The notes below the pieces were generated by a model. It saw only the letters and a program-made list of their open reading frames with translations. It ran no database searches and was not told the DNA's origin. Positions 12,734 to 34,968 of a stretch of DNA of 64,000 nt are shown here, one piece after another; position 1 is the stretch's first letter, and every line of letters begins with the position of its first letter. This DNA comes from Pelagibacterium limicola (lineage in GTDB: Bacteria > Pseudomonadota > Alphaproteobacteria > Rhizobiales > Devosiaceae). Made by a program: the position numbers and the translations under genes. The stretch is taken from NCBI RefSeq assembly GCF_015694405.1, contig NZ_JADQDB010000003.1, positions 372,001 through 436,000 of the forward strand. Reading direction: 5' to 3'.

Positions 12734-14431
12734 ATGGGTAGGTTGAATATCGCTTTCGGTGATCGATCGCTCAGTGCAGCACCGTTCAATCTCGACGACG
12801 CCGATCTGGCATGGGTCCGATCGACTTTCGATGCATTGAATCTCGACCAGAAGCTCGGCCAGCTCATCATCCCCATTTGCAGGGATCTTTCCGCTGAGGC
12901 GCTTGACCAACAACTGGCATTGGGCGTGGGAGGCCTTCACCGCCTCCCGCGCCGCGCCGAAGCCGAATTGCGTGATAGCGCAGCCTATGCGCAGTTGAAA
13001 GCCGCAACTCCGCTGCTTATGACGTGCGACATTGAGTTCTCCGAGAAGAGCAGTGTGGGCTCTGGCACCTTTTTCCCAAATCAAATGGCGATCGGGGCAA
13101 CAGGCGACCGCGTTCACGCGACACGCATGGGTGCAATGGCCGCTCGCGAAGCAGGCTATCTTGGCTTCAACCTCAGTTGGTCGCCGATAGGCGACTTGGC
13201 CGCCAACTTTCGATCGAGCGTTGTGAACACGCGCGCTTTCGGGGCCGACCCAGCTGCGGTGAGCGCCTTTGTAATGGAGTACCACCGGGGTGCACGCGAG
13301 AACGGCTTCGCGACATGTCTCAAGCATTGGCCTGGTGATGGCGTGGACGATCGCGACCAGCATTTCGTAACATCGCGCAATTCTCTGCCACTGGACGAAT
13401 GGCGTACAAGCTTCGGCAAAATCTACGCTGACGCCATTGCCGATGGTGTACAAATCATTATGGCCGGACATATCACCTTGCCAGCCTATGGGGCTTCTTT
13501 GGGCGATGACGCTGACAGTCCGCAGCATATGCCTGCATCGCTCAATGCCGACCTTAGCATCCGCCTTCTGCGGCAGGAGCTTGGATTCAATGGCGTCGTC
13601 GTTTCCGATGCGACACTTATGAATGGGTTTGGAGCGTGCGGGCCGCGTGAAACAATTGTTCCGATGTGCATCGAGAACGGATGCGACATCCTGCTTTTCC
13701 CCAAGGATACTCTGGAAGATATCGGTCACTTGCGACGCGGCTTGGAAACGGGGCTCTTGACCAAGGAGCGTTTAGACCAGGCCGTGCTGCGAGTGCTCGC
13801 GCTCAAGGCTTCGATGGGCCTTCACCTCTCGCGTGGCGCAATACCAGACAAGTCGAACAAACCGCAGAGGCTTGCATCTAAAGAACATCGCCAATGGGCA
13901 CGCGAAGCATCGGAAGCGGCCGTCACGCTGGTGAAAGATACTCAGCACCTGCTGCCTTTGCGCCCTGATAAGCATCGGCGGATTCTCCTCGCGCAACCGC
14001 AGGAGCGCTTCAGCCCATCCGGGCCGCTTCAGCCTCTTGAGATCGACCGGCTATTGCGCGAAGCCGGTTTCGAGGTTCATTGTTATCAGCCTGACGAGCC
14101 GATCGACGCTACGGCGTACGACATCGCAATGTATGTGCAGGCCGAAGAGGGCATGTCGGCCAAGGAGCATCTCGGGCCCCGCTGGAGCGAGTTCCACGGC
14201 CGCTTTCCCGCATCCATGAACCGTCTCTGGCACTGGCTGCCCACCATTTATGTGTCGCTCGGCACGCCGTTCCTGCTCTATCACATGCCCGAGTGCAAGA
14301 CGTTCGTAAACGCCTACTCCGCGATCCTGCCCATGCAGCAAGCGGTCGTCGATGCGCTAATGGGCAAAATTGCGTTCTCCGGCCGGAGCCCGGTCGATGC
14401 CTTCTGCGGGCTGCCCGAAGCAGAGAATTGA
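12734..14431 (+). CDS. Glycoside hydrolase family 3, NagZ-like (beta-N-acetylhexosaminidase/beta-glucosidase)
   Basis: Hydrolyses beta-glycosides, probably of the sugar imported by the preceding transporter. It has 565 residues with no signal peptide, so it is cytoplasmic. The TIM-barrel domain carries the NagZ-type motif KHWPGDG (197-203) with Asp208 and His210, the Asp-His pair that acts as acid/base in N-acetylglucosaminidases. The nucleophile Asp292 lies in VVVSDATLM, where NagZ usually has SDDLSM. A C-terminal domain from about residue 385 (EASEAAVTLVKD) makes it longer than single-domain NagZ (about 340) and more like two-domain GH3 enzymes. The start is uncertain: no strong ribosome site. 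Confidence 0.85.
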   Translation: MGRLNIAFGDRSLSAAPFNLDDADLAWVRSTFDALNLDQKLGQLIIPICRDLSAEALDQQLALGVGGLHRLPRRAEAELRDSAAYAQLKAATPLLMTCDIEFSEKSSVGSGTFFPNQMAIGATGDRVHATRMGAMAAREAGYLGFNLSWSPIGDLAANFRSSVVNTRAFGADPAAVSAFVMEYHRGARENGFATCLKHWPGDGVDDRDQHFVTSRNSLPLDEWRTSFGKIYADAIADGVQIIMAGHITLPAYGASLGDDADSPQHMPASLNADLSIRLLRQELGFNGVVVSDATLMNGFGACGPRETIVPMCIENGCDILLFPKDTLEDIGHLRRGLETGLLTKERLDQAVLRVLALKASMGLHLSRGAIPDKSNKPQRLASKEHRQWAREASEAAVTLVKDTQHLLPLRPDKHRRILLAQPQERFSPSGPLQPLEIDRLLREAGFEVHCYQPDEPIDATAYDIAMYVQAEEGMSAKEHLGPRWSEFHGRFPASMNRLWHWLPTIYVSLGTPFLLYHMPECKTFVNAYSAILPMQQAVVDALMGKIAFSGRSPVDAFCGLPEAEN

Positions 14432-15133: not shown

Positions 15134-15976
15134 TTATGCGCAAGTGTTCGGCTGCGTTTCCGAAAGCACTGGACGCACATGCCGGGATGTTCTTACGCAG
15201 GCGATCAACAGCCCGTCGTCGCGAAATATTCCCATGCCCAGGCGGGTCTTCAAAACCTCAATGCTATCACCCTGGTCCAGATTGCCCAGATATACAACAT
15301 CCCTGCGTGCGAGCGGAGCAAGGCTTCTGTTCGTCTCCCACTGTGCACGTTCCGCCAATCGGGAAAAGACAGGGAAATACAGCAGACCGACCGCATTGAA
15401 ATCCAGACTTGGACAGGGCCTCTCGCGATACCCTTTGTCCGAAGCCGCGAGAAGCTCCTGACTGGATTTCGATACTTCCCGCGCGGCATTGTTCAGTGCA
15501 AGCAAGGTCGCGGGAGCACTTGGCAATTCGGCTTCACTGACAGTCCGGTTGCGCACAATCCGGCGATTGAGGCCGGATTCGTCGTGACTGACAAAGGTTG
15601 AGATCATCGAGAGCCGTGCCAGTTCCTGGCCTTGGTGGCAAACGGCGTGGATAGAACCCGTTCGTCCGCGACTTAGCCTGAATATACCGGACTTTATAAT
15701 AACTTCGGCACCTTGCAGACGTATCGTAGAGCGCGAAACTTCAAGGGAGGTCGCGCAGAATGCCGCATAGGCGGGACGGCCCTCGCTGTCGGTAAACACG
15801 GCCCGATCCAGGCCCGCGGCTTCGGCAATCAGCGACCAATGAATGTCACCGCATTCGCGTAAGAGCCATTGCTCGGAAAGCCCCTCAGGCGCGAGCTGTG
15901 CCATGCCAAGACGAATGGTACGGACCTGTTCGACAGGAGCGAGAGCACGATCCGCCAATGCCATGACTGCGCTCAT
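15134..15976 (-). CDS. LnmK-like protein, Pnap_2097 family (putative acyltransferase/decarboxylase)
   Basis: A 280-residue protein whose opening (IRLGMAQLAPEGLSEQWLL followed by RECGDIHW) resembles LnmK and the related Pnap_2097 family. LnmK is a double hot-dog-fold enzyme of leinamycin biosynthesis that transfers and decarboxylates methylmalonyl-CoA onto an acyl carrier protein. No acyl carrier gene is nearby. Its ATG overlaps the stop of the flavoprotein gene (ATGA), so it is translated with the Nit1C genes. A function in modifying or sequestering an acyl group in this pathway is possible but not shown. Assignment by remembered motifs; moderate certainty. Confidence 0.65.
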   Translation of the reverse strand: MSAVMALADRALAPVEQVRTIRLGMAQLAPEGLSEQWLLRECGDIHWSLIAEAAGLDRAVFTDSEGRPAYAAFCATSLEVSRSTIRLQGAEVIIKSGIFRLSRGRTGSIHAVCHQGQELARLSMISTFVSHDESGLNRRIVRNRTVSEAELPSAPATLLALNNAAREVSKSSQELLAASDKGYRERPCPSLDFNAVGLLYFPVFSRLAERAQWETNRSLAPLARRDVVYLGNLDQGDSIEVLKTRLGMGIFRDDGLLIACVRTSRHVRPVLSETQPNTCA

Positions 15977-17253
15977 TCGGCGGCTGCCACAGCGTCAGTA
16001 TTCGCGTTGCGTTCGATTATTTCGGCCAGATAGACACTGTCTTCTTCAATGCCGAGGAAACGGCCGGAGCCCCAGGTATTCAGCCATCCCAGGCCGATGA
16101 AATATAACCCCGGAGCTGCGGTAACGCCGCGATCGAACACCGGACGCCCCTTTTCGTCGAACACGTCCACTTCGAGCCAGCTATAGTTGGCCCTGAAACC
16201 GATCGCCCAAATGACCGAAGTGATGCCGAGTTCGGCAGCATCGATTTCGGTCACTTCGCTTTCCGGCTCCCATACCTTCTCGAAGGGTTGGGTCGATGGC
16301 GCATCAATGCCCTGGCGCTCGATATAGGCGTCGATCTGCTCGCAAATGCGAACATAGCTGGCATCGGCATCATCGAGGTTCTTCTTGAGGTCAGGCAGGA
16401 ATTCGATCCGGCTGCCGTCCATATCGGACAGCGAACCATAAAGCGACACGCCGTTTTCAAGGTGCCAGCGGCGCAGGTCGATTTCCTTGCCCCCGTCCCG
16501 GCCCGACATATAGTGGTTGGTCTGGGTCAGCGCTTTGACAGGGTCGGGGTGTTCAGCAATCGTAACGGCGTAGTGGCCAGCATCGTACAACCAATCGGTT
16601 GCGTCCCGGCCGCGATACTTGCGCGGGCTACGCGGTGCCGGGCCCACGGCAAGATGCACCTTGCGCCCCGCGCGCACGAAATCTTCCATGATCTGTACCC
16701 CAGACTGCCCGGTTCCCACGATCAATGTGGCACCGTTGGGCAGCTGGTCCGGGTTCCGATAGGACACCGAGTGCATCTGCATGATCGAAGGGTCGAGCCG
16801 TTTGGCATATGCCGGCTCGATCGGATTGTCATATCCGCCAGTGGCCACAACCACCTGATCGCAGGTCCATACGCCAGCAGAAGTTTCAACGACATATCCG
16901 CCGAGGGTGCGCGGCGAAACGCGGGTCACTTCAACATTTTCGACGATGTTGGGAGAAAAGGTCGACGCAAAGGCATCCAGATAATCGACGATTTCATTCC
17001 GGAGCATGAACCCATGCGGATCGGTGCCACCAAATTGCTTGTCGTAGTGGAAGCCGGGCAGACGGCATTGCCAGTTTGGCGTAACCAGGCAAAAGCTGTC
17101 CCAACGATTGACGCGCCAGGAATGAAATTTTTCATGGCGTTCAAACACCACGCTTTCGATATTCTTCTTGCCCAGATTATAGGCCACAGAAAGTCCGGCC
17201 TGCCCTCCGCCAACGATCACCACGGGAATATGCGGATGTGCGGTGTCATTCAT
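15973..17253 (-). CDS. nitH: MSMEG_0569-family flavin-dependent oxidoreductase (NitH-like)
   Basis: A flavoprotein monooxygenase-like enzyme of about 426 residues. An N-terminal FAD Rossmann motif (VVIVGGGQAGLSVAYNLG) is followed by a second dinucleotide motif (TLIVGTGQSGVQIMEDF) for NADPH and a C-terminal ATG-like region (GLYFIGLGWLNTWGSGRFLG). The start at 17253 follows AAGGA by seven bases; an upstream ATG at 17268 overlaps the previous stop but lacks a ribosome site. This family is restricted to Nit1C-type clusters, where it may oxygenate a cyanide-derived adduct or nitrile. The exact reaction is unknown. Confidence 0.88.
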   Translation of the reverse strand: MNDTAHPHIPVVIVGGGQAGLSVAYNLGKKNIESVVFERHEKFHSWRVNRWDSFCLVTPNWQCRLPGFHYDKQFGGTDPHGFMLRNEIVDYLDAFASTFSPNIVENVEVTRVSPRTLGGYVVETSAGVWTCDQVVVATGGYDNPIEPAYAKRLDPSIMQMHSVSYRNPDQLPNGATLIVGTGQSGVQIMEDFVRAGRKVHLAVGPAPRSPRKYRGRDATDWLYDAGHYAVTIAEHPDPVKALTQTNHYMSGRDGGKEIDLRRWHLENGVSLYGSLSDMDGSRIEFLPDLKKNLDDADASYVRICEQIDAYIERQGIDAPSTQPFEKVWEPESEVTEIDAAELGITSVIWAIGFRANYSWLEVDVFDEKGRPVFDRGVTAAPGLYFIGLGWLNTWGSGRFLGIEEDSVYLAEIIERNANTDAVAAAE

Positions 17254-17264
17254 GATCAGTTCCT

Positions 17265-17552
17265 TCATCTGGAAATCGACAGGCAGGTGACTTCGGCGCC
17301 CGCCTGTTGTGCAAATTGGGTTCCGCGAAGCTCGATCCGCTGCAACTGGTCCAGGGCTGAACTGCAGGCAAAGCCGTATTTGCGCTCAACCCGCTCGGAC
17401 GCCATGTTCAACGAAGATCTGGCCCGTTCAAGAAACTCGGGCAGCGGATAGCTCTGACCCGGGGTGAACCAATCGGTTATGACGCTGGAGGGGGAATAGC
17501 AGCGCTCTTCGCTGTTATCGGGCCAGCGCACATACCAGTACATCTCAGGCAT
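17265..17552 (-). CDS. nitG: MSMEG_0570-family nitrogen starvation response protein (NitG-like)
   Basis: A 95-residue protein that begins MPEMYWYVRWPDNSEERCYS, the hallmark opening of the MSMEG_0570 family, and contains the conserved KYGFACSSALDQL segment. The biochemical role is not known. The ATG at 17552 has GAGG six bases upstream and overlaps the end of the AIR-synthase-like gene by eight bases. It is a constant member of Nit1C clusters between the AIRS-like protein and the flavoprotein. Confidence 0.88.
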   Translation of the reverse strand: MPEMYWYVRWPDNSEERCYSPSSVITDWFTPGQSYPLPEFLERARSSLNMASERVERKYGFACSSALDQLQRIELRGTQFAQQAGAEVTCLSISR

Positions 17553-18525
17553 AATCCACCTCACTCGCGCGCAGGTTCAGGTAGGGGGTCTCCGCATGGT
17601 CCCAAAACAATGCCGTTTCCTCGCCCGCGCGGAGCCGGATTTTTGATCCGCGCACAATTTGGCCAATCGGCCCGGCCCAGACATCATGTGCAAGAAAACG
17701 ACCGCAGACTGTCTCAACGCTGTCCGGTGGGACCGCGAGCAGGAAGCCGAAGCTCGGGAAAGTCCGGAGCCAGCGCTCTACCGGCACCGCGCGGGGCCGT
17801 ATCAACCGGTCAACATCGATATCTATGCCCACTCCCGAGCATTCGGCCATCATCAGAGCGGTGCCGACAATACCACCCTGACTGATATCTTTTCCGGCGC
17901 AGACCAATTGCGTTTCCGAAAGAAAGGGCAGAATTTCGAGCTTATCTCTAAGCTGCCGGGGACTTTGCGATCCGGCTGCGAAAAAATTGTCGTAGTTCCT
18001 GTAGTCACCATTGAGGTCGATGGCCGCAACGAGCACATCGCCAGGCCGGGCCGCGAAACTGGAAATGATCGCCCTGGCGCGCCCCAGTATCGACACCGCC
18101 AGGCCAAGGCTGCCCGCTGCAAAATTCGTGTGACCGCCAAGGATCGGCACATCGTAGGCTGCGCCAGCGTCACGCAACCCCTCCAGCAAAGGACGTGCGG
18201 TAGCGGAATCCGGGGCCCACACCTGATCGAGCACGCCCACGGCTCGCCCGCCCATTGCCGCTATGTCGGAAATATTGACCATGAGGCCGCACCAGCCAGC
18301 AAACCACGGATCGTCATTGACGAAAGCCGGGATGAACCCCTCTCCGGCCAGAAGATCGAATGTGCCGTCGCCGCGCGGCAGAACCGCAGCATCGTCGCCC
18401 GGCCGCCCGGCACTCTTTGCCCCTATATCGAGCATGCCCGTCGCGGCACCAATGGCCAGCTTTGAGCGGATTGACGGATGCTGCCGCAGGCTCGCCGCCA
18501 GTTGTTGAACGTCAGCAATGCTCAT
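17545..18525 (-). CDS. nitF: Sll0787-family AIR synthase-like protein (NitF-like)
   Basis: A 326-residue member of the PurM/ThiL/SelD ATP-dependent superfamily. The N-terminal domain shows the GDDAAVLPRGDGTFDLLAG strand-loop and WFAGWCGLMVNISDIAAMGG, which build the ATP and metal site. The C-terminal domain carries KDISQGGIVGTALMMAE. Members phosphorylate or activate carboxyl or amide substrates. The role in Nit1C is unproven, perhaps activating an intermediate made by the nitrilase or radical SAM enzyme. The ATG at 18525 overlaps the GNAT stop (ATGA). In Mycobacterium the AIRS and GNAT parts are fused; here they are two genes. Confidence 0.87.
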   Translation of the reverse strand: MSIADVQQLAASLRQHPSIRSKLAIGAATGMLDIGAKSAGRPGDDAAVLPRGDGTFDLLAGEGFIPAFVNDDPWFAGWCGLMVNISDIAAMGGRAVGVLDQVWAPDSATARPLLEGLRDAGAAYDVPILGGHTNFAAGSLGLAVSILGRARAIISSFAARPGDVLVAAIDLNGDYRNYDNFFAAGSQSPRQLRDKLEILPFLSETQLVCAGKDISQGGIVGTALMMAECSGVGIDIDVDRLIRPRAVPVERWLRTFPSFGFLLAVPPDSVETVCGRFLAHDVWAGPIGQIVRGSKIRLRAGEETALFWDHAETPYLNLRASEVDYA

Positions 18526-19061
18526 GCTGCGCTCCGCCTTGCCATGAAGTACCAACCGGTATCTGGGTCAGTTATCGGTGCGTATTTCGCCAGATCGGCC
18601 GACATGCACAGATGCGGGACGCCGTGATAATCCACTTCGTGCAGGCCCTGCCAGTGGAGACGGCGGAACAATGGGACGTTCTGCATCTGCACATGGGCGA
18701 GGAAAGTATGGCAACCACGTGCGTTGGCGGTACTGACGGCAAGGCGAATGAGTTCTGCCCCCAGCCGCCCAACCTTACGATAATCGGCGTCCACGGCCAG
18801 CCTTGATCCCCACCATAGGCCCGGCTGCTCCTCATGTATGCGCACCGTGCCCACCACGCGATCGGGCTCATGCCCCAGGGTGGAAAGGGCAACCAGATGG
18901 GTTGCGATCAGGTCGATGTCGTCGCGATCATCACTCGCAAAAATAGCCTGTTCATCGACAAATACGCGCCGGCGCAGTTCGGCGGCTCCGCGCGCTTGCC
19001 ATGGCCTGGATGCCGCGCGGATGAAATAGCCCGGCGAACGAAACTGCACGACCCCGGACAT
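18522..19061 (-). CDS. nitE: MSMEG_0567-type GNAT N-acetyltransferase (NitE-like)
   Basis: A 179-residue GNAT-fold protein starting MSGVVQFRSPGYFIR. The acetyl-CoA binding region is DRVVGTVRIHEE to DYRKVGRLGAELI, a V-x-x-x-x-R/G-x-G/A-like turn. It corresponds to the GNAT half of the fused mycobacterial MSMEG_0567. The start lies two bases after the radical SAM stop codon, with GGTGG as ribosome site inside that gene. The acceptor amine is unknown. Its place between the radical SAM and AIRS-like genes is the standard Nit1C order. Confidence 0.87.
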   Translation of the reverse strand: MSGVVQFRSPGYFIRAASRPWQARGAAELRRRVFVDEQAIFASDDRDDIDLIATHLVALSTLGHEPDRVVGTVRIHEEQPGLWWGSRLAVDADYRKVGRLGAELIRLAVSTANARGCHTFLAHVQMQNVPLFRRLHWQGLHEVDYHGVPHLCMSADLAKYAPITDPDTGWYFMARRSAA

Positions 19062-19063
19062 GG

Positions 19064-20164
19064 CTAAACCACCTTGAGTTTTTCGTAGGTAGAAAGCGCC
19101 GAACACGCACCGCATCGCCCGCAACCAGCCTTGATGTCGGAAGACTTCATGCCAGCCTCGACGATCATCTCACCCAAAGGCCGCAAAATAGATGCCATGA
19201 ACTCCGCCTTCGGAGCCGGGTGGCTCTCAAGCGGCGTGCCGGAAATGGGCACGAAAGGCACCACGAATGGATAAACGCCCATGCTGCAAAGCTTTTGCGA
19301 CGTCTCAAGGATGGCTTCGGCGCTGTCGCCCAGCCCGGCGAGGATATAGGTGGAAACCTGTCCCCGCCCGAAAACCTTCACTGCCGCCTCGAACGAAGAA
19401 AAATACTTCTCGAGTGGGACCGATGCCTTGCCTGGCATGATGCGGGCGCGAACCTCGGGTGTTACCGCTTCAAGATGCATGCCCAGAGCGTCGATCCCTG
19501 CATCTGCCATGCGTTCATGCCAGACGTCATCTGCTGGTGGTTCGCATTGTCCTTGGATTGGAATATTGACCGCTGCCTTGATCGCGCGGGCACTCTCGGC
19601 CAGAACAGCGGCCCCTCGATCCAGGCTGGCAGGGGTGCCGGTTGTCATGACCATATGCTCGATCCCGTCGAGTTCGACGGCAGCCTTGGCAACCTCGGCC
19701 AATTGCTCAGGTGTCTTGTGAGCGATGGTGCGGCCTGCCGCCAGACTTTGACCTATGGCGCAGAACTGACAGGTTTTCTTACGGCTTTCATAGCGAATGC
19801 AGGTCTGGAGCACGGTCGTGGCCAGCACATTGCGCGAGTGCAACGTTGCGATGTGGCTATAGGGGATTCCTTCCGCGGTTTTGAGGTCGTAGAAGCGCGG
19901 ACGGCCGGGAAAGCGCACCCGCGCCACCTCAACGCCTTCGCGAGTCACGCGCGACAGGCCGTCTTCGGCAGGCGCCTCAACCAGAAAGGGGCTTTCAAAC
20001 GCGGGCGCGGTATGGACCGGGACCATTACCGTAGTCGCGCCAATCGTCACCGCCTTGTGGTCCGATGGGCCCGCGCCGCCACGGCGGCTTTCATGGCCCG
20101 CACGCGGGTCCACCAAGCGCATGCCCCGCGTTTGAAGCTCATTGATGAGTTCGGAGCTAGACAT
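19064..20164 (-). CDS. nitD: MSMEG_0568-family radical SAM protein (NitD-like)
   Basis: A 366-residue radical SAM enzyme. The cluster-binding cysteines appear as Cys122, Cys132 and Cys135 ([15 protein letters not shown]), a C-x9-C-x2-C spacing instead of the usual C-x3-C-x2-C. The TIM-barrel glycine-rich GGE-like region follows as VMTTGTPAS. The C-terminus has a second Cys group ([12 protein letters not shown]) that may bind another iron-sulfur cluster. Start chosen at 20164 after GAGGAG; it overlaps the nitrilase end by eight bases. An upstream in-frame start would add 44 residues encoded inside the nitrilase gene. In Nit1C clusters this protein is obligatory but its reaction is unknown. Confidence 0.9.
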
Positions 20165-21158
20165 TTTCACACTCCTCTTCGGTAATTCCGGAGGCAAGCT
20201 CATACTTCTCCGGCTGATCGCCACGATCCTCGACCGTCTGGCGTGGCAGAGCGGGCCGGGTATCGTGAACAAGGTGAAGCAAGTCAGGGCGGGCATAATG
20301 GCCGACGCTGTCCATCATGCGCTTGCGTTTGGTAACGAGCTTCATGTCCATGTCTGCAATCAGTATTCCCTCTCCCTGGGTCAGCGGTTCGGCGAGGTGC
20401 CGCCCTTCGGGAGAAATGATGCAGGTCATGCAGCCATCGCTCACCGCCTTTTGCATTGCAGGATCAGGATGGATGGATGCGATCTGCTCGACGGTCAGCC
20501 AGCCGGTGGCATTGACAACGAAGCACCCGGACTCAAGTGCGTGATGACGCATTGTCACTTCAATCTGTTCGGCAAAAATCGGCCCGACAAGACTTCCAGG
20601 AAACTGCGCAGCATGAATTTCTTCGTGCTGTGTCATGAGCGCGTAACGGGCCAGAGGATTATAATGCTCCCAACACGCCAGAGCCCCGACACGGCCAACC
20701 TTGGTCTCCACAACCTTGAGGCCGGCGCCGTCGCCCTGCCCCCAGATCATCCGCTCGTGATAGGTTGGGGTGATCTTGCGCCGCTTCAGCGCCAGCATCC
20801 CGTCGGCGTCAATGATTAGCTGCGTGTTGTATAGCGAACCATGATCGCGTTCGTTGACGCCAAGAACGATGACAGCCCCGCTCTTGCGGGCGGCATCTGC
20901 GATCGCCTGTGTTTCGAGCGAAGGTACCGTCACCGCTTCCCTATAAAGCTGGAGATGCGCGGCACCTTGCTGCACAGGCGGTAGAACAAAAGAAAAATAT
21001 GGATAGTAGGGTACAAAGGTCTCGGGAAAGACGATGAACTGCGCACCCTTCCCGGCCGCCTCCGCAATGGCATTGAGAACCCGCTCCACGGTCCCGGCCC
21101 TACCGGTCAGGTCCGGGGCAATCTGAACGGCTGCGGCTCGTATCACATCGCTGCGCAT
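20157..21158 (-). CDS. nitC: Nit6803-type nitrilase (NitC-like, Sll0784 family)
   Basis: Hydrolyses a nitrile to acid and ammonia, the nitrogen-releasing step of the Nit1C pathway. In 333 residues the catalytic triad is complete: Glu46 (VFPETF), Lys128 ([13 protein letters not shown]) and Cys162 ([12 protein letters not shown]). The YYPYFSF stretch after the Glu is typical of the Synechocystis Nit6803 group, which prefers arylacetic and fumaric nitriles. The gene is second in the operon, 70 bases after the Sll0783-like gene. Proposed role: hydrolysis of a nitrile formed from cyanide plus a carbonyl compound by other cluster members. Confidence 0.92.
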
Positions 21159-21228
21159 AAAATCTGCCTGTTTGGTGGCTGTTCAAGAAAATCTGCAGGG
21201 CCGCGAACGACCCTGCATATGGCGAGGG

Positions 21229-21711
21229 TCAAACGGTCCAGGTGTCGAGAATGACGGCGTTTGCCTTTTTGTGGATCAGGATGCAGTCGAGCACATCCTG
21301 GGGCGCGATTGGGGTAATGCCGGGCAACAGCGAAGGCTCGCCATGTCCATACAATGCCTGCAGTGCAAACCGGCACGCATAGACCTTACCGCCTTCATTC
21401 ATAAACTTCTTGAGGTTGACGGCAAAGTTCTGATGCCCCGGGAAAGCCTCATCGCCCAATGTCGGGAAGCCCCGTTGAATTCCCAGCGTAACACCTGGCC
21501 CATAGAGCAGGATCGACGTCTCATAGCCCTTCCGGTTGAGCCGGATAGCGTTGAGAATATTGACCAAACCGATTGAGCCTTCAAATGCAACCGTATGGAA
21601 CGTCACGAGTGCCTTTTCGCCCTCATCCGCCTTTACGTCCTCAAAAACCTTCTGCTCATAATCTACAAAATAGTCGCCGTCCTTGTGCGCTGGCTGGGTA
21701 ACTGCAGGCAT
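21229..21711 (-). CDS. nitB: MSMEG_0572/Sll0783-family nitrogen starvation response protein (NitB-like)
   Basis: A 160-residue protein starting [20 protein letters not shown] at 21711 after GGAGAAAG; an upstream in-frame start has no ribosome site. The middle ([26 protein letters not shown]) has the alternating strand-helix look of DsrE-like folds, though this is only an impression. The Cys in [14 protein letters not shown] may be functional. It is the first gene of the nit operon, which continues to at least 15134. Members are induced by nitrogen starvation in Synechocystis and are required for cyanide assimilation in Pseudomonas Nit1C strains. Molecular function unknown. Confidence 0.88.
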
Positions 21712-21757
21712 TTTCTTTCTCCGGGTTAGTGAATATGGGAGAGCGTATGCCTGGAAA

Positions 21758-21917
21758 AATGTATGGGTCAATTGTCAGTTTAATATGCATACAATAATTC
21801 TGTAATTTGACTCATATGTGCATATATTTTGCGCACGGGAGCTATTTCTTCGGCATCCCACTGCTCAGAATATCGCTAATGATGGCTAGATATTAGAGAA
21901 AATGTGATCCATACATT
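21758..21917. promoter_or_regulatory. Mirrored 13-base boxes in the nitB-mocR divergent region (candidate operator)
   Basis: AATGTATGGGTCA (21758-21770) reappears in inverted orientation as TGATCCATACATT (21905-21917) with one mismatch. The boxes stand about 50 bases ahead of the nitB start and 35 ahead of the regulator start, so each could serve one promoter. The DNA between them is strongly AT-rich (for example 21779-21835). MocR proteins commonly bind repeated boxes in the divergent region they share with their target, so this is a good operator candidate. It rests on sequence symmetry alone. Confidence 0.5.
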
Positions 21918-21952
21918 GTGCAACATATTGATCGACTCAATTTGAGGAACTC

Positions 21953-23320
21953 ATGCAGAACTGGACTCCGGGCATGCGGAGTGACGGAACGCCCCGCTAC
22001 CTCATGATCGCAGAGGCAATTGCTGAGGACATCAAGTCCGGACTGCTTAAGCCCGGCATGCGGCTTCCACCTCAAAGGCAGCTTGCTGCCAGGCTCAAGA
22101 TCGACTTTACAACCGTTACGCGCGCCTATTCCGAGGCACAGGCGCGAGGGCTGGTGAATAGCCAAGTCGGTCGCGGAACCTTTGTCGCCGCGAGCGCCGC
22201 ATCAACCACATTGGCGGATCCATCCCGTGAGGCGAGCGAAGACCTCGTGATGAATATGCCGCCCGAACCAACAGACCCCGCGTTGGTCGAGAAGATGCGC
22301 GATGGCCTGCACTATGTGTCAGCCAACCTTATTCAATTGCTGCGCTATCAATCGGCCATTGGCAGCGAACAGGACAGGTCCGCGGCTTCAAGTTGGCTGT
22401 CGCTGCGCGGTCTCATGGCAAAACTCGAACGCATCGCGGTCACGCCCGGAGCGCACGCTACAATCACGGCCATATTGGCCATGACCGTCGAACGCAATGA
22501 CACGGTATTGTGCGAAAAAATTACCTATCCCGGCATTCGGAGTATCGCCCAGCGTCTCAATGTCAACCTTGTCGGGGTTGAAATGGACAACCAGGGCGTG
22601 CTTCCCGATGCCTTGGAGGAAGCGATCAAACGCCACCAGCCGCGTATGCTTTATCTCAATCCGACCCTGCAAAATCCCACAACGATCACCTCACCGACGG
22701 CACGGCGCCTGGAGATTTCCCAGATTATCAGCGACTACCGCGTGCAACTGATCGAAGATGACGCCTATGGTTTTGTGCCTGACAAGGCTCCAGCCCCAAT
22801 CGCCGCTTCGGCTCCGGATCTGACCTGGTATATCGGCGGATTGGCAAAGTGCATCGGAGCAGGGCTGCGTCTGGCCTATACCGTTGCGCCATCGGCAAAA
22901 CATGCGCTTGCGCTGGAAGGGTCACTGCGCGCGCTTATGGTGATGCCGTCAACATTGCCTATGGCGCTCGCGACACGCTGGATAGAAGATGGAACCGCGG
23001 ACCTTGTCAGACGCTTTATTCGCAAGGAAACCGCTATCCGGCAGGACATTGCTGCAGAGGCCCTTCATGGCCTCGAATTCCTTTCGGCCGAAAACGCATT
23101 CAATGTATGGTTGCGCCTTCCGCCCGGTACGAGCCGGGCAAACATCATGGCGAATATGACGGGCCGGCACATCGGCATCATTCCTTCCGATGCGTTCACT
23201 GTCGGCGGCACCGCAGACGAATGTGTGCGCGTATGTCTTGGCGGATCCATTGGCCGCACCGAACTGCAAGGAGGGCTGGCCTATCTGGCCCACTTGCTCA
23301 TGCCAGAGCCCAACTACTGA
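21953..23320 (+). CDS. MocR-type regulator (GntR helix-turn-helix fused to PLP aminotransferase fold)
   Basis: A 455-residue regulator. The N-terminal GntR winged helix is at residues 13-80 (LMIAEAIAEDIKSGLLKPG, LPPQRQLAARLKID, GLVNSQVGRGTFV). The C-terminal fold-type I aminotransferase domain has the likely PLP lysine at 299 (GGLAKCIGAGLRLAY) and the NPTLQNPT segment near 236-243. ATG with GAGGAAC upstream. It is transcribed away from the Nit1C-type operon and is probably its activator or repressor, sensing an amino acid or amine that reacts with PLP. A MocR regulator here is unusual as far as I recall for Nit1C clusters. Confidence 0.9.
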   Translation: MQNWTPGMRSDGTPRYLMIAEAIAEDIKSGLLKPGMRLPPQRQLAARLKIDFTTVTRAYSEAQARGLVNSQVGRGTFVAASAASTTLADPSREASEDLVMNMPPEPTDPALVEKMRDGLHYVSANLIQLLRYQSAIGSEQDRSAASSWLSLRGLMAKLERIAVTPGAHATITAILAMTVERNDTVLCEKITYPGIRSIAQRLNVNLVGVEMDNQGVLPDALEEAIKRHQPRMLYLNPTLQNPTTITSPTARRLEISQIISDYRVQLIEDDAYGFVPDKAPAPIAASAPDLTWYIGGLAKCIGAGLRLAYTVAPSAKHALALEGSLRALMVMPSTLPMALATRWIEDGTADLVRRFIRKETAIRQDIAAEALHGLEFLSAENAFNVWLRLPPGTSRANIMANMTGRHIGIIPSDAFTVGGTADECVRVCLGGSIGRTELQGGLAYLAHLLMPEPNY

Positions 23321-23804: not shown

Positions 23805-24068
23805 TTGAACACACTCTTCTTACTCATGGCGCAGTATGAGGGACGCGTTATTGTTCCCGCAGAAACCGTGTGCAAAGACTATTTTTCCCACCTCACGCTC
23901 ACCAAATTCTTGCGCAAAGTGAGCGCTGGAGAAATCGAGCTTCCAATTACCCGGGCAGAAAAAAGCCAGAAAAGCGCGAAGGGCGTTCATCTTCAGGACC
24001 TAGCCTCATACCTCGACAAGCGACGCCAGATCGCACTGTCCGAAGCGCACGCCTTCCGTCGGAAATAG
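23805..24068 (+). CDS. PrtN-family (pyocin activator-like) small DNA-binding protein
   Basis: An 87-residue protein with a TTG start. MNTLFLLMAQYEGRVIVPAE, then CKDYFSHLTLTKFLRKVSAG, then SQKSAKGVHLQDLASYLDKRR reproduce the pattern of PrtN-family proteins, named after the Pseudomonas pyocin activator and shaped like small winged-helix/excisionase proteins. In alphaproteobacteria such genes are often found beside integrases of genomic islands. No pyocin or phage structural gene is present. It lies 180 bases from the truncated dusA, so a role as recombination directionality factor of an island is the likeliest reading. The ribosome site is weak. Confidence 0.75.
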   Translation: MNTLFLLMAQYEGRVIVPAETVCKDYFSHLTLTKFLRKVSAGEIELPITRAEKSQKSAKGVHLQDLASYLDKRRQIALSEAHAFRRK

Positions 24069-24404: not shown

Positions 24405-25094
24405 TCACAAGGCGAATATCTCGCCCGTTCGGCAATTGCGGACGCGATCTACGACCTTGCCGTTCCAATGATAGTCGAAATGGTCGCCCTGCACGGGTGG
24501 CGGGATGAGGTTGGGCCAGAAGATGCCGGCGCATTGGCCGCCCGGGGAGCGGACGCTCTTGTAGACGACGCCGTTGGCGCCCTTGGCGCGCAGGTCGCGC
24601 CCGAGCGATTGAGACGCCGAATAGTCGGTGGGGTGGTGGTATTTGCCGAATTCCCGCAGGTCGGCGAGGTCGAGATCGATGGCATTGATGAGAAGGCGGA
24701 ACTGAGAGGTCCAGCCAGGCGCTTCATTGGACGCGGCCATCGTGCGGCCGTGGTGATAGGCGACTTCGCGAATGGCCACTTCCTCACTGTCGCCGGCGCT
24801 GTAGACCCCATATGTGCCGTCGGTGAACCGGCCGGGACGGTCGGTGCTGACATGGACGAAGGGGGCCATGAGGAGGCTGGCGCCGGCGCCGCCCACGCGC
24901 CGGTCCGGGGGAACGAGATCGAGACGGCCCAGGTGTTCCCATAGGCGCGGGTTGGTCTTGGATTCGGCGGAGGCAAGCGCCTCCCAATCGCGTGGGTCGG
25001 CGATATCCTCAAAAAGATCGATGGGCGGGTGGATCGAGCGGATGATGCGGCAAGCGCGCGGCCAGCTTACGCGGACGGGCGGGATTGAGGTCAC
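24405..25094 (-). CDS. RES-domain toxin
   Basis: A 229-residue RES-family toxin, an ADP-ribosyltransferase-like enzyme whose known members destroy NAD+. The fold's signatures are visible: the early Arg-rich strand ACRIIRS, the block GRFTDGTYGVYSAGDSEEVA followed by IREVAYHHGR (catalytic Glu) and a late Ser region (PTDYSASQSLGRDLR). The start is GTG at 25094, overlapping the stop of the antitoxin gene (GTGA), which gives translational coupling. The pair sits just outside the dusA fragment. Confidence 0.88.
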   Translation of the reverse strand: MTSIPPVRVSWPRACRIIRSIHPPIDLFEDIADPRDWEALASAESKTNPRLWEHLGRLDLVPPDRRVGGAGASLLMAPFVHVSTDRPGRFTDGTYGVYSAGDSEEVAIREVAYHHGRTMAASNEAPGWTSQFRLLINAIDLDLADLREFGKYHHPTDYSASQSLGRDLRAKGANGVVYKSVRSPGGQCAGIFWPNLIPPPVQGDHFDYHWNGKVVDRVRNCRTGEIFAL

Positions 25095-26555: not shown

Positions 26556-27671
26556 CTATCGGATGCTCAGATACCCGCCCGGCAGCCCATGCCGTGAGTA
26601 AACGATCTGCCAGAGCTGTATCCAGCGGGCGCGGAAGATCGCGGCACAGCTCAGGAGGTAATAGCGCCACATGCGATAGAACCGCTCGCCGTACTTGTCC
26701 CTGAGATCGGGCCAGGCGGCCTCGAAATTGGCGTGCCAGGCCATGAGGGTCTTGTCGTAGTCGGCACCGAAATTGTGCCAATCCTCCATGACCAGCAGCC
26801 CTTCGGAGGCGTCCGATATCTGGCGGGGAGAGGGCAGCATGCCATTGGGGAAGATGTATTTTTCCAGCCATGGATCGCCGTGCATCCTGCTGAGATTGCC
26901 GCCGATCGTGTGGAGCAGAAACAGCCCATCATCGGCCAGCAGATCGTTGACCTTGTTGAAGTACCGGCGGTAATTCTTGAACCCCACATGCTCGAACATG
27001 CCGACCGAGACGATGCGGTCGAACTCGCCATCGAGCGACATGTAGTCGATCAGCCGCGTCTCGATGGGCAGGTTGCCGCGCGTATCGTTGGCGTAAGCGG
27101 CCTGTTCCCTGGAAACCGTGATGCCGACGGCCTTAACGCCATAGCGCTCGGCGGCGAACTTGATGAGCCCGCCCCAGCCCGAGCCGATATCGAGCAGGCG
27201 CATCCCTTCCTTCAAGCCGATCTTGCGGCAGATGAGATCGAGCTTGGCCTCCTGCGCGTCCTCGAGATTGTCAGCATCGCGCCAGTACCCACATGAATAG
27301 ACCATGCGCGGGTCGAGCATCCGCCCGTAAAGATCGTTGCCGCGATCGTAATGCTTTTCGGCCACTTCCCTTGGGTCGCTGCGCTGGCGGTTGAAGACGA
27401 TACCCTTTAGGGTCGAGACGGCGAGCGCCAGATCGAGCTTGATCTTGCTCTGCACGTCGTTCACCAGCACGCGATGGATGAACTGGTCGACCGCCTCGGC
27501 ATCCCACCAACCATCCATATAGGCTTCGCCCAGTCCCAGCGAACCTTGCGTCATGATGCGCCGGTAGAGGCGTTCGTCATGCACCTGGATATCCCAGGGC
27601 CTACTTCCGTTGACCTCGACCCCGCATTGGGCGAGCAGGTCAATAATGAAATTCTTGAAACGCTCTGACAT
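26556..27671 (-). CDS. cfa: Cyclopropane-fatty-acyl-phospholipid synthase
   Basis: Transfers a methylene group from S-adenosylmethionine to double bonds of membrane phospholipid acyl chains. 371 residues from MSERFKN. An N-terminal lipid-binding part (TQGSLGLGEAYMDGWWDAEA) is followed by the SAM-binding motif LLDIGSGWGGL and the C-terminal YYLLSCAAIFRARWIQLWQ, which carries the family's active-site Cys. The ATG at 27671 matches the usual N-terminus; an earlier frame extension of 13 residues is hydrophobic and unlikely. Membrane hardening in stationary phase or acid stress is the known role. Confidence 0.93.
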   Translation of the reverse strand: MSERFKNFIIDLLAQCGVEVNGSRPWDIQVHDERLYRRIMTQGSLGLGEAYMDGWWDAEAVDQFIHRVLVNDVQSKIKLDLALAVSTLKGIVFNRQRSDPREVAEKHYDRGNDLYGRMLDPRMVYSCGYWRDADNLEDAQEAKLDLICRKIGLKEGMRLLDIGSGWGGLIKFAAERYGVKAVGITVSREQAAYANDTRGNLPIETRLIDYMSLDGEFDRIVSVGMFEHVGFKNYRRYFNKVNDLLADDGLFLLHTIGGNLSRMHGDPWLEKYIFPNGMLPSPRQISDASEGLLVMEDWHNFGADYDKTLMAWHANFEAAWPDLRDKYGERFYRMWRYYLLSCAAIFRARWIQLWQIVYSRHGLPGGYLSIR

Positions 27672-27749
27672 GGCCAACCCGGACACCACCACCCCGGCAA
27701 CCCAAAACACTATTACAATTTGATTTTCCGCCGTTTGTCCAGACGGGGC

Positions 27750-33373: not shown

Positions 33374-34968
33374 CCCCCGTCCTTCCACCTCACTCGGTAG
33401 AGGTCGAAGCGCCGGTCGCGCAGGTTGCGGACGGCGCCTTGGGCGCGGGCCCATTGTAGGGTGGAGACGTTGAGATCGGCGACGACGACCATTTCGACAT
33501 TCTCGCTCGCTTCGGCAGCAATGCCGTCGCGGGCGAAGGGCATGTCCGAGGGCGTCAGGATGGCCGAATGGGCGTAGTTGATGTCGAGATTATCGACATT
33601 GGCGAGATTGCCCGTAATGCCCGAGGTCACGACATAGCATTGGTTCTCGATGGTGCGGGCGTGGGCGCAATAGCGCACGCGCAGATGCCCCTGCCGCGTG
33701 TCGGTGCAGTAAGGCACGAACATGATGCGGGCGCCTTGATCCGCGAGGCGGCGGGCCACTTCGGGGAACTCTGAGTCATAGCAGATCATCACCCCGATCG
33801 GGCCGCAGTCTGTGTCGATCACGTCCACGGTGTCGCCGCCCACGATGCCCCAATAGTCGCGCTCGTCCGGCGTGGGATGGATTTTTTCCTGCGCGTGGAT
33901 CGTGCCGTCGCGCAGGAAGACATAGCAGACGTTCTGGATGTCCTCGTCTTCCGTTTCCGTGGGGTGGGAACCGCCGATGATGTTGATGTTCCAGCCCAGG
34001 GCCATCTTCTGCATCCGCTCGAGGAATTCGGGCGTAAACTCGGTCAACCGCACCACCGCCTCATGGGGCGGGCGCTCAGGCTCGCTCGACAGCAGCATCA
34101 GGGTGAAAAGTTCGGGAAAGACGATGAAGTCCGACCCGTAGTCGGCGGCGACTTCCACGAAATACTGCACATAGGCGAAGAATTCGTCGGAATTGGCCAC
34201 CCGGCGCGCTTCCATCTGAACGGTCGTGACGCGTACGGTTTCCTTGGAGCGCTGGTGGGCCGGGCGCTGTTCGTCCTCGGGGTCGTAGCGCGGATTGCGC
34301 CAGACCATGAGCGCGGCGTGTCCTCCGGACGCCTTGTCGTCCGGATGATAGTTACGCAGCAGCATTTCCGGCTCGTAGCCGAGCTTCATCTGGAAAGCCG
34401 CTACGGGATCGCGCACTTCGCGCTCCTTGACCGCCTTGAAATAATCCCGCGCGCGGGGATAGTCCTTCTTGTTGCGGCGATAGCCCGGGAGGCGGCCGCC
34501 AAAGGCGATCCCCTTGAGCCACAGTTCGTCGCAGAGCCGGCTGCGCGCCTCGTAAAGGCGCTTGCCGATGCGGGCGCGCTGGCGGCCGGGATCGACGCAC
34601 ACTTCCACGCCATAGAGCCATTCGCCCTTGGCGTTGTGCATCGAGCCGTAACCGGCGCCGGTGATGTCCTCCCAGGTATGCTGGCGGAAGATGGATTTTT
34701 CGGCCAGCTGGAGAGTGGCGGCGTAGCCGACGATTTCGCCGTCATAAACAGCGACGAACTGGCCCTCTGGAAAAGCGTTGATTTGGCCCCTGATCATACC
34801 CGGCTCGTAGGGCCCCTCTTCGGGATAAACCCGCTGGGTCAGCCTGATGATTGCGGGAATATCGCGGATGCGAGCATTGCGGATCTCGAGGACCGGCTTG
34901 GAAGGCAGCTTGGACAAGAAGGAGGGCTCCGGTGCAAATGGCAACTCATTTGCGCCTTTATACAGCAA
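33370..34968 (-). CDS. Bifunctional GNAT N-acetyltransferase / carbon-nitrogen hydrolase
   Basis: A 532-residue fusion. The GNAT domain covers about residues 27-225 (NARIRDIPAIIRLTQRVYPE; VCVDPGRQRARIGKRLYEAR with the acetyl-CoA loop). The nitrilase-fold amidase covers about 245-525, with triad Glu286 (VFPELF), Lys362 (EKIHPTPDERD) and Cys396 (MICYDSEFPE). The family occurs widely in bacteria, including YhcX of Bacillus, and its substrate is unsettled. The TTG start at 34968 is uncertain; a start nearer residue 18 is possible. It converges with the reductase gene (four-base overlap of ends). It is not related to the Nit1C nitrilase except by fold. Confidence 0.88.
   Translation of the reverse strand: MLYKGANELPFAPEPSFLSKLPSKPVLEIRNARIRDIPAIIRLTQRVYPEEGPYEPGMIRGQINAFPEGQFVAVYDGEIVGYAATLQLAEKSIFRQHTWEDITGAGYGSMHNAKGEWLYGVEVCVDPGRQRARIGKRLYEARSRLCDELWLKGIAFGGRLPGYRRNKKDYPRARDYFKAVKEREVRDPVAAFQMKLGYEPEMLLRNYHPDDKASGGHAALMVWRNPRYDPEDEQRPAHQRSKETVRVTTVQMEARRVANSDEFFAYVQYFVEVAADYGSDFIVFPELFTLMLLSSEPERPPHEAVVRLTEFTPEFLERMQKMALGWNINIIGGSHPTETEDEDIQNVCYVFLRDGTIHAQEKIHPTPDERDYWGIVGGDTVDVIDTDCGPIGVMICYDSEFPEVARRLADQGARIMFVPYCTDTRQGHLRVRYCAHARTIENQCYVVTSGITGNLANVDNLDINYAHSAILTPSDMPFARDGIAAEASENVEMVVVADLNVSTLQWARAQGAVRNLRDRRFDLYRVRWKDGG

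Follow-up and report, generated by a model that had tools for sequence, protein, structure and literature searches.

A divergent MocR-type regulator lineage accompanies the Nit1C cluster of Proteobacteria, with candidate operators and a promoter split between two clades

Nit1C is a known bacterial gene cluster linked to growth on cyanide. It has been described since Podar et al. 2005, who were unable to find conserved binding sites upstream of the cluster (PMC1199592). In Pseudomonas pseudoalcaligenes CECT5344, NitA, a sigma54-dependent regulator, is named for nit1C, with mocR placed only in the cio cluster (PMC11049912), and the GntR/MocR genes of this strain in PMC8567248, PMC5333837 and PMC6368324 are other than a Nit1C regulator. 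Here we analyse a Nit1C cluster in a 64,000-nucleotide stretch of the Pelagibacterium limicola genome (contig NZ_JADQDB010000003.1, positions 372,001 to 436,000; the window), which faces a divergent MocR-type regulator named NitR here. Literature passages on Nit1C and GntR regulators yielded no MocR regulator of Nit1C, and the main text of Suvorova and Rodionov 2016 (PMC5320631) lacks the terms 'nitrile', 'radical SAM' and 'nitrogen starvation'; a Nit1C regulog in its supplementary tables is possible. As far as seen in these sources, the regulator lineage, the conserved operator word and the promoter switch reported below are new.

Precedents for cyanide-related control come from other MocR proteins. 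MpaR of Pseudomonas aeruginosa, presented in a study that calls bacterial cyanide sensing poorly understood, is cyanide-responsive, requiring cyanide for full function as well as K314, and its authors propose cyanide-modified pyridoxal phosphate (PLP) as the signal; it activates, controlling ccoN4 and adjacent loci via an ATCTGAT motif (PMC10790758). The CECT5344 MocR BN5_1899 lies divergent from the cio cluster, which includes the nitrilase Nit4, and reportedly acts negatively, its mutant making cio proteins constitutively (PMC8567248, for the mutant citing unpublished data). EnuR is a MocR/GabR-type repressor of ectoine catabolism (PMC8739950).

The window holds the same seven families in the same order as the Nit1C of CECT5344 and of Podar et al. 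2005 (PMC1199592, PMC11049912). It differs from CECT5344, which has NitA, in carrying MocR and an added eighth gene (PMC11049912), and whereas Podar et al. 2005 found no conserved upstream sites, the loci surveyed here share a conserved word. NitA-type control was not found in the window: the neighbour is MocR, no sigma54-dependent activator is adjacent, and no strict sigma54 -24/-12 pattern precedes nitB. Both the Nit1C identity and the gene order had been proposed in a preliminary description made from the sequence alone, together with the idea of a profile search; our NCBIfam search confirmed them, placing 7/7 families (NitB to NitH) above curated cut-offs on the minus strand (21711 to 15973; Table 1).

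To determine how regularly a MocR accompanies Nit1C, we surveyed 103 NitB loci: 10 genomes from order and class searches, the best 80 of 579 confirmed database matches, and 13 genomes from a phylum sample. The 80 database loci are skewed toward the window's NitB because they are the best matches, and the sampled genomes may repeat some of the named database loci. A divergent MocR adjoins nitB in 93/103 loci and in 93/94 from Pseudomonadota (71/71 named loci and 22/23 sampled genomes, all of the latter from the window's phylum). It is found in 0/9 loci of other phyla, two of which have <0.5 kb and one 1.3 kb of sequence upstream of nitB; there the neighbour of nitB is AraC-type in two flavobacterial loci (Pfam was run on one) and LuxR-type in Marinoscillum, and no regulator adjoins nitB in three cyanobacteria and an Opitutia bin, whose listed frames were inspected by eye.

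The phylum sample contained NitB in 16/398 genomes, 15 of them with a divergent MocR (own genome included). The exception, G608 (L156), carries the only NitA-like gene among the 103 loci, a sigma54 activator 57% identical to one on an Acinetobacter plasmid. Within the class, NitB occurred in 10/385 genomes (own included), and a divergent MocR relative adjoins nitB in 10/10; with four candidates per genome scored, this MocR was the genome's best match in 9/10 and the second best in G111 (327.7 versus 339.9 bits). The nearest named locus is that of Nitratireductor sp. ZSWI3 (MocR 85%). These counts support the link between regulator and cluster drawn in the preliminary description, and the outcome it had named as counter-evidence, a regulator standing equally beside unrelated genes in relatives, failed to appear, the pairing being present in 10/10. 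Its hint that a MocR is unusual for Nit1C is not supported, MocR being the rule in the proteobacterial loci surveyed.

NitB also occurs on 515 plasmid records, 374 of Klebsiella and 30 of Escherichia by name, and six of the 515 were examined for a regulator. A divergent MocR is present on the Klebsiella, Allorhizobium and Alloyangia plasmids, and by frame position only on the unannotated Paraburkholderia plasmid. The Acinetobacter plasmid has a sigma54 regulator. On the Acetobacter plasmid, a co-directional MocR (L163:6254-7657) lies outside the clade of the other Nit1C-adjacent MocRs (the nit clade), perhaps representing a second, independent pairing with Nit1C. Among the matches listed, nearly all Klebsiella plasmid NitB proteins are 76.7% identical to the query.

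Domain analysis revealed an N-terminal GntR helix-turn-helix (HTH) domain (PF00392) and an aminotransferase class I/II domain (PF00155) in the window's regulator, both above the Pfam cut-off; it is therefore MocR-type, of the GntR subfamily. The divergent PLP-type MocR of the preliminary description is thus borne out at the level of domains, and the predicted PLP lysine is kept: K299, N241, D269, Y272 and R306 are identical in 89/89 nit MocRs. The presumed roles of these residues are assigned from motif position.

Phylogenetic analysis of 136 MocRs in a quick tree placed 98/99 nit-adjacent proteins in one clade (Shimodaira-Hasegawa-like approximate likelihood-ratio support 88), the exception being the Acetobacter plasmid MocR on a long branch. 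Because the quick tree had long branches, we built a more careful tree from 69 selected rows, which omits the Acetobacter plasmid MocR, L200, two nit-clade plasmid rows, nit rows that were redundant and roughly half of all non-nit rows; in it, 50/50 nit-adjacent MocRs form one clade (support 100/87). The nit MocRs are one dedicated lineage and the regular partner of Nit1C in most of the proteobacterial copies surveyed. Pairwise MocR distances correlate with joined NitBCDFH distances (r 0.907 over 89 rows; 0/2000 permutations as high), which indicates a common history, whatever the process behind it. Among 60 nearer relatives and the own genome, 0/12 congeners have a MocR match at 1e-50.

The regulator's best NCBIfam model is EhuR (NF052286), at 410.5 bits (410.8 in a second search). 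Identity with EhuR/EnuR was ruled out: the 480-bit cut-off is missed, and 9/9 above-cut-off members (nine proteins found in 29 genomes and placed in the 136-row tree) fall in a distinct clade of 22 rows (support 100). EhuR is the closest model, but NitR falls below its cut-off and belongs to another clade, and the genes scanned around the window's regulator include none for ectoine.

To characterize the DNA between nitB and mocR, we collected 94 intergenic regions, of which one was dropped from the word search for ambiguous letters (93 used); 48 are non-redundant (MocR identity <75%), comprising 35 from Alphaproteobacteria and 13 from elsewhere (Beta- and Gammaproteobacteria as well as five genomes of other classes). 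Gapped words were counted against shuffled sequences, and IUPAC patterns were afterwards picked by eye from the same sequences. An expectation-maximisation motif search degenerated into low-complexity motifs matching hundreds of sites; we dropped it in favour of gapped-word counting. The word ATTG-N2-TGCA occurs in 31/48 non-redundant regions (shuffled mean 1.5), and TTGA-N2-GCAT, found independently, in 18/35 alpha and 11/13 other regions. The half-site ATTGNNYGNAT is present in 45/48 loci (35/35 alpha and 10/13 other; shuffled means 2.2 and 0.87). When ten intergenic regions from the window's group are aligned, two invariant TGTATG cores stand out, one near each gene.

The proposed sites O1, nearer nitB, and O2, nearer mocR, are most likely, judged from the conserved words, NitR operators of the ATTGTATG type. 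The 8-mer ATTGTATG alone is uninformative: with at most one mismatch the window has 21 copies, the chance level, including one exact copy inside nitB. A 16-base pattern around O1, ATTGTATGNATATTRA, has three sites in the genome at <=2 mismatches and an exact copy only at O1.

Comparison of the regions revealed a promoter split that follows the regulator phylogeny. We distinguished clade A, the window's MocR clade (51 regions), from clade B, the other nit MocRs (43 regions); a tree of the enzymes divides along the same line (support 100, 89 rows). Oriented toward nitB, the strict sigma54 pattern TGGCAYRN4TTGC is found in 35/94 regions, all of them in clade B (35/43, against 0/51 in clade A, window included), and with a looser sigma54 score 42/43 clade B regions reach at least 9 of 12, whereas none of clade A exceeds 8. 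Conversely, ATTGTATG is found in 51/51 clade A regions versus 5/43 of clade B. Mapped onto the enzyme tree, the strict sigma54 label needs 6 changes, because the strict pattern is absent from 8/43 regions of clade B.

In 46/51 clade A loci the last TTGTATG is found some 76-104 bases ahead of nitB, and a TTGTATG with TTGA[CT] at a distance of 8-20 bases after it occurs in 37/51 clade A loci versus 1/43 of clade B (shuffled mean 0.0). In the window, TTGACC (21771-21766) may be read as the -35 element of the nitB promoter. Since rpoN is present in the window's genome, loss of sigma54 fails to explain the promoter switch there. An operon with a sigma54-type promoter should require an enhancer-binding activator. 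None was found beside nitB in clade B loci (for example L018 and L117), and NtrC-like palindromes in the clade B regions are rare (GCAC-N7-GTGC in 4/43, shuffled mean 0.57; three other patterns in 0 or 1 of 43), so that they single out no enhancer. As to the operator change, only HTH-region position 56 stood out between the clades (S in 46/51 of clade A, A in 38/43 of clade B), too little for an explanation by altered DNA contacts, which we rejected. The A/B split makes it possible to compare, in nature, the same operon under a sigma54-type and under a housekeeping-type promoter.

We expect the ligand of NitR to be either cyanide or an intermediate of the pathway, given a regulator tied to Nit1C in alpha-, beta- and gammaproteobacteria and invariant PLP residues. 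The preliminary description had favoured an amino acid or amine, which the conserved PLP pocket would suit. PLP itself, however, reacts with cyanide, and together with the example of MpaR this makes cyanide, by analogy, at least as good a candidate inducer. MpaR and NitR are both MocRs with a predicted PLP lysine, but MpaR targets ccoN4 through ATCTGAT and NitR is proposed for Nit1C through ATTG repeats; BN5_1899 adjoins the cyanide-resistance cio cluster rather than nit1C.

Cytochrome oxidase is the target of cyanide, and the non-nit MocRs nearest the nit clade have a DUF983 gene in their flank in 7/12 cases, versus 2/24 for outer MocRs, and also at L201, L202 and L203. The window's genome has two DUF983 genes, one between the cytochrome oxidase genes COX3 and SURF1 and the other elsewhere, and DUF983 occurs in 10 of the 93 nit loci with MocR. 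This neighbourhood would tie the ancestry of the nit MocRs to cytochrome oxidase, although it is suggestive only. MocRs in or near the nit clade stand beside DUF983 at loci without Nit1C (L200-L203, L206, L207). A cyanide-insensitive oxidase as regular neighbour was rejected, CydA lying near 3/103 loci, though such genes are present on the Alloyangia plasmid: there, immediately upstream of the Nit1C MocR (L166:1263-8349), lie a second MocR, cytochrome ubiquinol oxidase genes, a 5-aminolevulinate synthase, an aminotransferase and DUF983.

The families of the genes, the lineage of the regulator, the conserved words, the split between promoters and the absence from congeners were all computed; binding, control direction, signal and chemistry in the following scheme are what we infer. 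The eight-gene operon, nitBCDEFGH plus a Pnap_2097/LnmK-like gene, would be switched by its dedicated, divergent, PLP-binding NitR, which would bind the ATTGTATG-type sites O1 and O2. At O1, NitR would sit just ahead of the -35 element of a promoter of the housekeeping type, activating nitB once its PLP is modified by the signal; at O2, it would control its own gene. The signal would most likely be cyanide, adding to PLP or to the PLP-K299 imine as in the proposal of the MpaR authors, and the induced enzymes would release ammonium from a cyanide-derived nitrile via NitC. Taken whole, and including an island location of the operon (below), we regard this explanation as rather probable. A further-reaching proposal makes NitR a whole MocR lineage dedicated to sensing cyanide for proteobacterial Nit1C, through addition of cyanide to lysine-bound PLP; this lineage would descend from a cytochrome-oxidase-linked (DUF983-linked) MocR and would have replaced sigma54 control in one clade by a switch of promoter and operator. 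The proposal is put forward only tentatively, and we doubt that all of it will hold. NitR and its candidate operators provide a direct handle on the signal of the pathway, and the conserved DNA sites between nitB and the regulator make its control directly testable.

Several observations weigh against this scheme. A -10 element was matched in only 17/51 clade A loci (shuffled mean 0.6), and ATTGNNYGNAT was chosen on the same sequences used for counting. Cyanide is proposed as the signal by analogy, with MpaR and BN5_1899 likened to NitR by description rather than by sequence, and negative regulation is reported for the CECT5344 MocR. Only 5/93 nit loci have DUF983 within about 0.2 kb of the MocR, and CydA oxidase genes are near only 3/103. 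The distance correlation would fit joint transfer as well as joint vertical descent. Finally, one of the tree-placed nit-clade MocRs (L200 in G058, 85% to that of L150) comes from a genome without a NitB match; with an assembly of 1890 contigs, this MocR beside DUF983 possibly reflects loss of Nit1C or a gap in the assembly.

Alternative readings concern both the ligand and the direction of control. NitR might respond to an amine or amino acid, such as an aminonitrile or another pathway intermediate, through an external aldimine with its PLP; cyanide would then act only once converted. An ectoine-utilisation MocR as closest model, the repressor role of EnuR in ectoine catabolism and the invariant PLP lysine and partner residues all fit such a ligand, but the missed EhuR cut-off and the separate clade of true EhuR members do not, and to our knowledge Nit1C contains no amine-forming step; we consider this reading unlikely. 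A repressor relieved by its ligand, as the CECT5344 MocR is on the cio cluster, is a possibility to be taken somewhat more seriously, though still short of probable. The constitutive cio proteins of the CECT5344 mutant (PMC8567248) would fit it, as would the arm of CATACATT at 21758-21765, which falls in the spacer of the proposed promoter; the position of O1 upstream of the -35-like TTGACC is instead typical of an activator, and MpaR, the cyanide-responsive MocR, activates (PMC10790758).

A different view of the pathway would make Nit1C mainly biosynthetic, forming a nitrogen-starvation product that is acylated or glycosylated, with growth on cyanide a by-effect of the nitrilase. The FeeM-like character of NitE agrees with this, as do the LnmK/Pnap_2097 homologue (40/103 loci), a MSMEG_0565-type glycosyltransferase (20/103), the AMP-binding gene that follows nitH on plasmids of Klebsiella and Acetobacter, and the GlnR site and 263-fold change reported for MSMEG_0572 in M. 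smegmatis (PMC3662644). Against it, studies of CECT5344 call NitC essential if cyanide is to be assimilated (PMC5333837, PMC8567248). We think a mainly biosynthetic role improbable; activation of a cyanide-assimilating operon by NitR is the preferred explanation.

The cluster looks like a horizontally acquired passenger of a strain-specific island. NitB is present in 0/12 congeners and 0/24 other family members, and the GC (guanine plus cytosine) content steps from 0.573 (1-23400) to 0.635 (24405-64000). The right-flank gene 26556-27710 occurs in 11/12 congeners, whereas the left-flank GH3 gene 12734-14431 has a 40% relative in 1/12 only. DNA similarity of >150 bp to three congeners begins at 24405, 26556 or 26596, with none further left in compared regions that extend about 3, 14.7 and 8.5 kb past the similarity start. 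Together, the flank comparison, GC step and congener absence point to an island carrying Nit1C with its regulator. Its right edge holds a PrtN-like (pyocin activator family) gene (23805-24068) and a RES-domain gene (24405-25094).

Table 1. Genes of the Nit1C locus and proposed control sites in the window
Feature	Position	Strand	Basis
Pnap_2097/LnmK-family gene, eighth operon gene, co-directional	15134..15976	-	TIGR04099 214.1 bits (cut-off 125); TIGR04098 LnmK 194.4 (cut-off 100)
nitH, MSMEG_0569 flavin-dependent oxidoreductase	15973..17268	-	TIGR04046 589.1 bits (cut-off 498.35)
nitG, MSMEG_0570 family	17265..17552	-	TIGR04042 123.1 bits (cut-off 79.85)
nitF, sll0787 AIR-synthase-like (AIRS-like) protein	17545..18525	-	TIGR04049 392.1 bits (cut-off 321.3)
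nitE, MSMEG_0567/Sll0786 GNAT	18522..19061	-	TIGR04045 220.2 bits (cut-off 68.45)
nitD, MSMEG_0568 family radical SAM protein	19064..20164	-	TIGR04043 600.8 bits (cut-off 303.7)
nitC, Nit6803-type nitrilase	20157..21158	-	TIGR04048 553.9 bits (cut-off 502.6)
nitB, MSMEG_0572/Sll0783 family, first gene of the operon	21229..21711	-	TIGR04044 282.9 bits (cut-off 109.85)
ATTG repeat with -35-like TTGACC and inverted arm, CATACATT	21758..21772	-	promoter reading inferred
Proposed operator O1, nitB-proximal half-site, ATTGTATGCAT	21785..21795	-	conserved word
Proposed operator O2, mocR-proximal site, AATGTATGGAT	21907..21917	-	TGTATG core invariant in 10-locus alignment
NitR, divergent MocR-type regulator of the Nit1C-associated clade	21953..23320	+	PF00392 and PF00155

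The preliminary description placed the cluster and regulator at 15134-23320, a range that covers the eighth gene, which its gene list left out. The overlaps it noted at nearly every junction were found at 5/7, the eighth gene's included (C/D 8 bp, E/F 4, F/G 8, G/H 4 and H/eighth gene 4), whereas B/C and D/E are separated by gaps of 70 bp and 2 bp; for these lengths gene starts were set near the profile starts. The nitB start is the ATG at 21711, with GGAG upstream, and the nitD start, ATG at 20164, was taken from the sequence.

Homologues of the eighth gene occur in 40/103 nit loci, on the nitH strand in 40/40 and within 120 bp of nitH in 37; the Pfam LnmK domain of the window's gene is below cut-off (19.6 versus 26.5). 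On the Klebsiella and Acetobacter plasmids, an AMP-binding gene follows nitH instead (L161:15663-17333; L163:14842-16477), and among the 103 surveyed loci it has a weak match in 1. The exchange suggests alternative acyl-activation modules after nitH.

NitC has the nitrilase 3wuy as closest PDB match (E 3e-147), and NitE also matches Pfam FeeM PF21926 (E 1.5e-7). The low-confidence predicted model of NitB (predicted local distance difference test, pLDDT, 54) has DsrE-like proteins (DsrE/DsrF) as top PDB matches, the best at only E 2.5e-3; it is weakly consistent with the YchN/DsrE reading of NitB already published (PMC1199592, PMC3901256). The NitG model is confident (pLDDT 94.5), yet its PDB search gave no match at E up to 0.001. 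Elsewhere in the window, positions 33721-34158 give a second, weak nitrilase-like match (28%, E 1.9e-5), which lies within a long open frame and may represent the amidase portion of some other enzyme.

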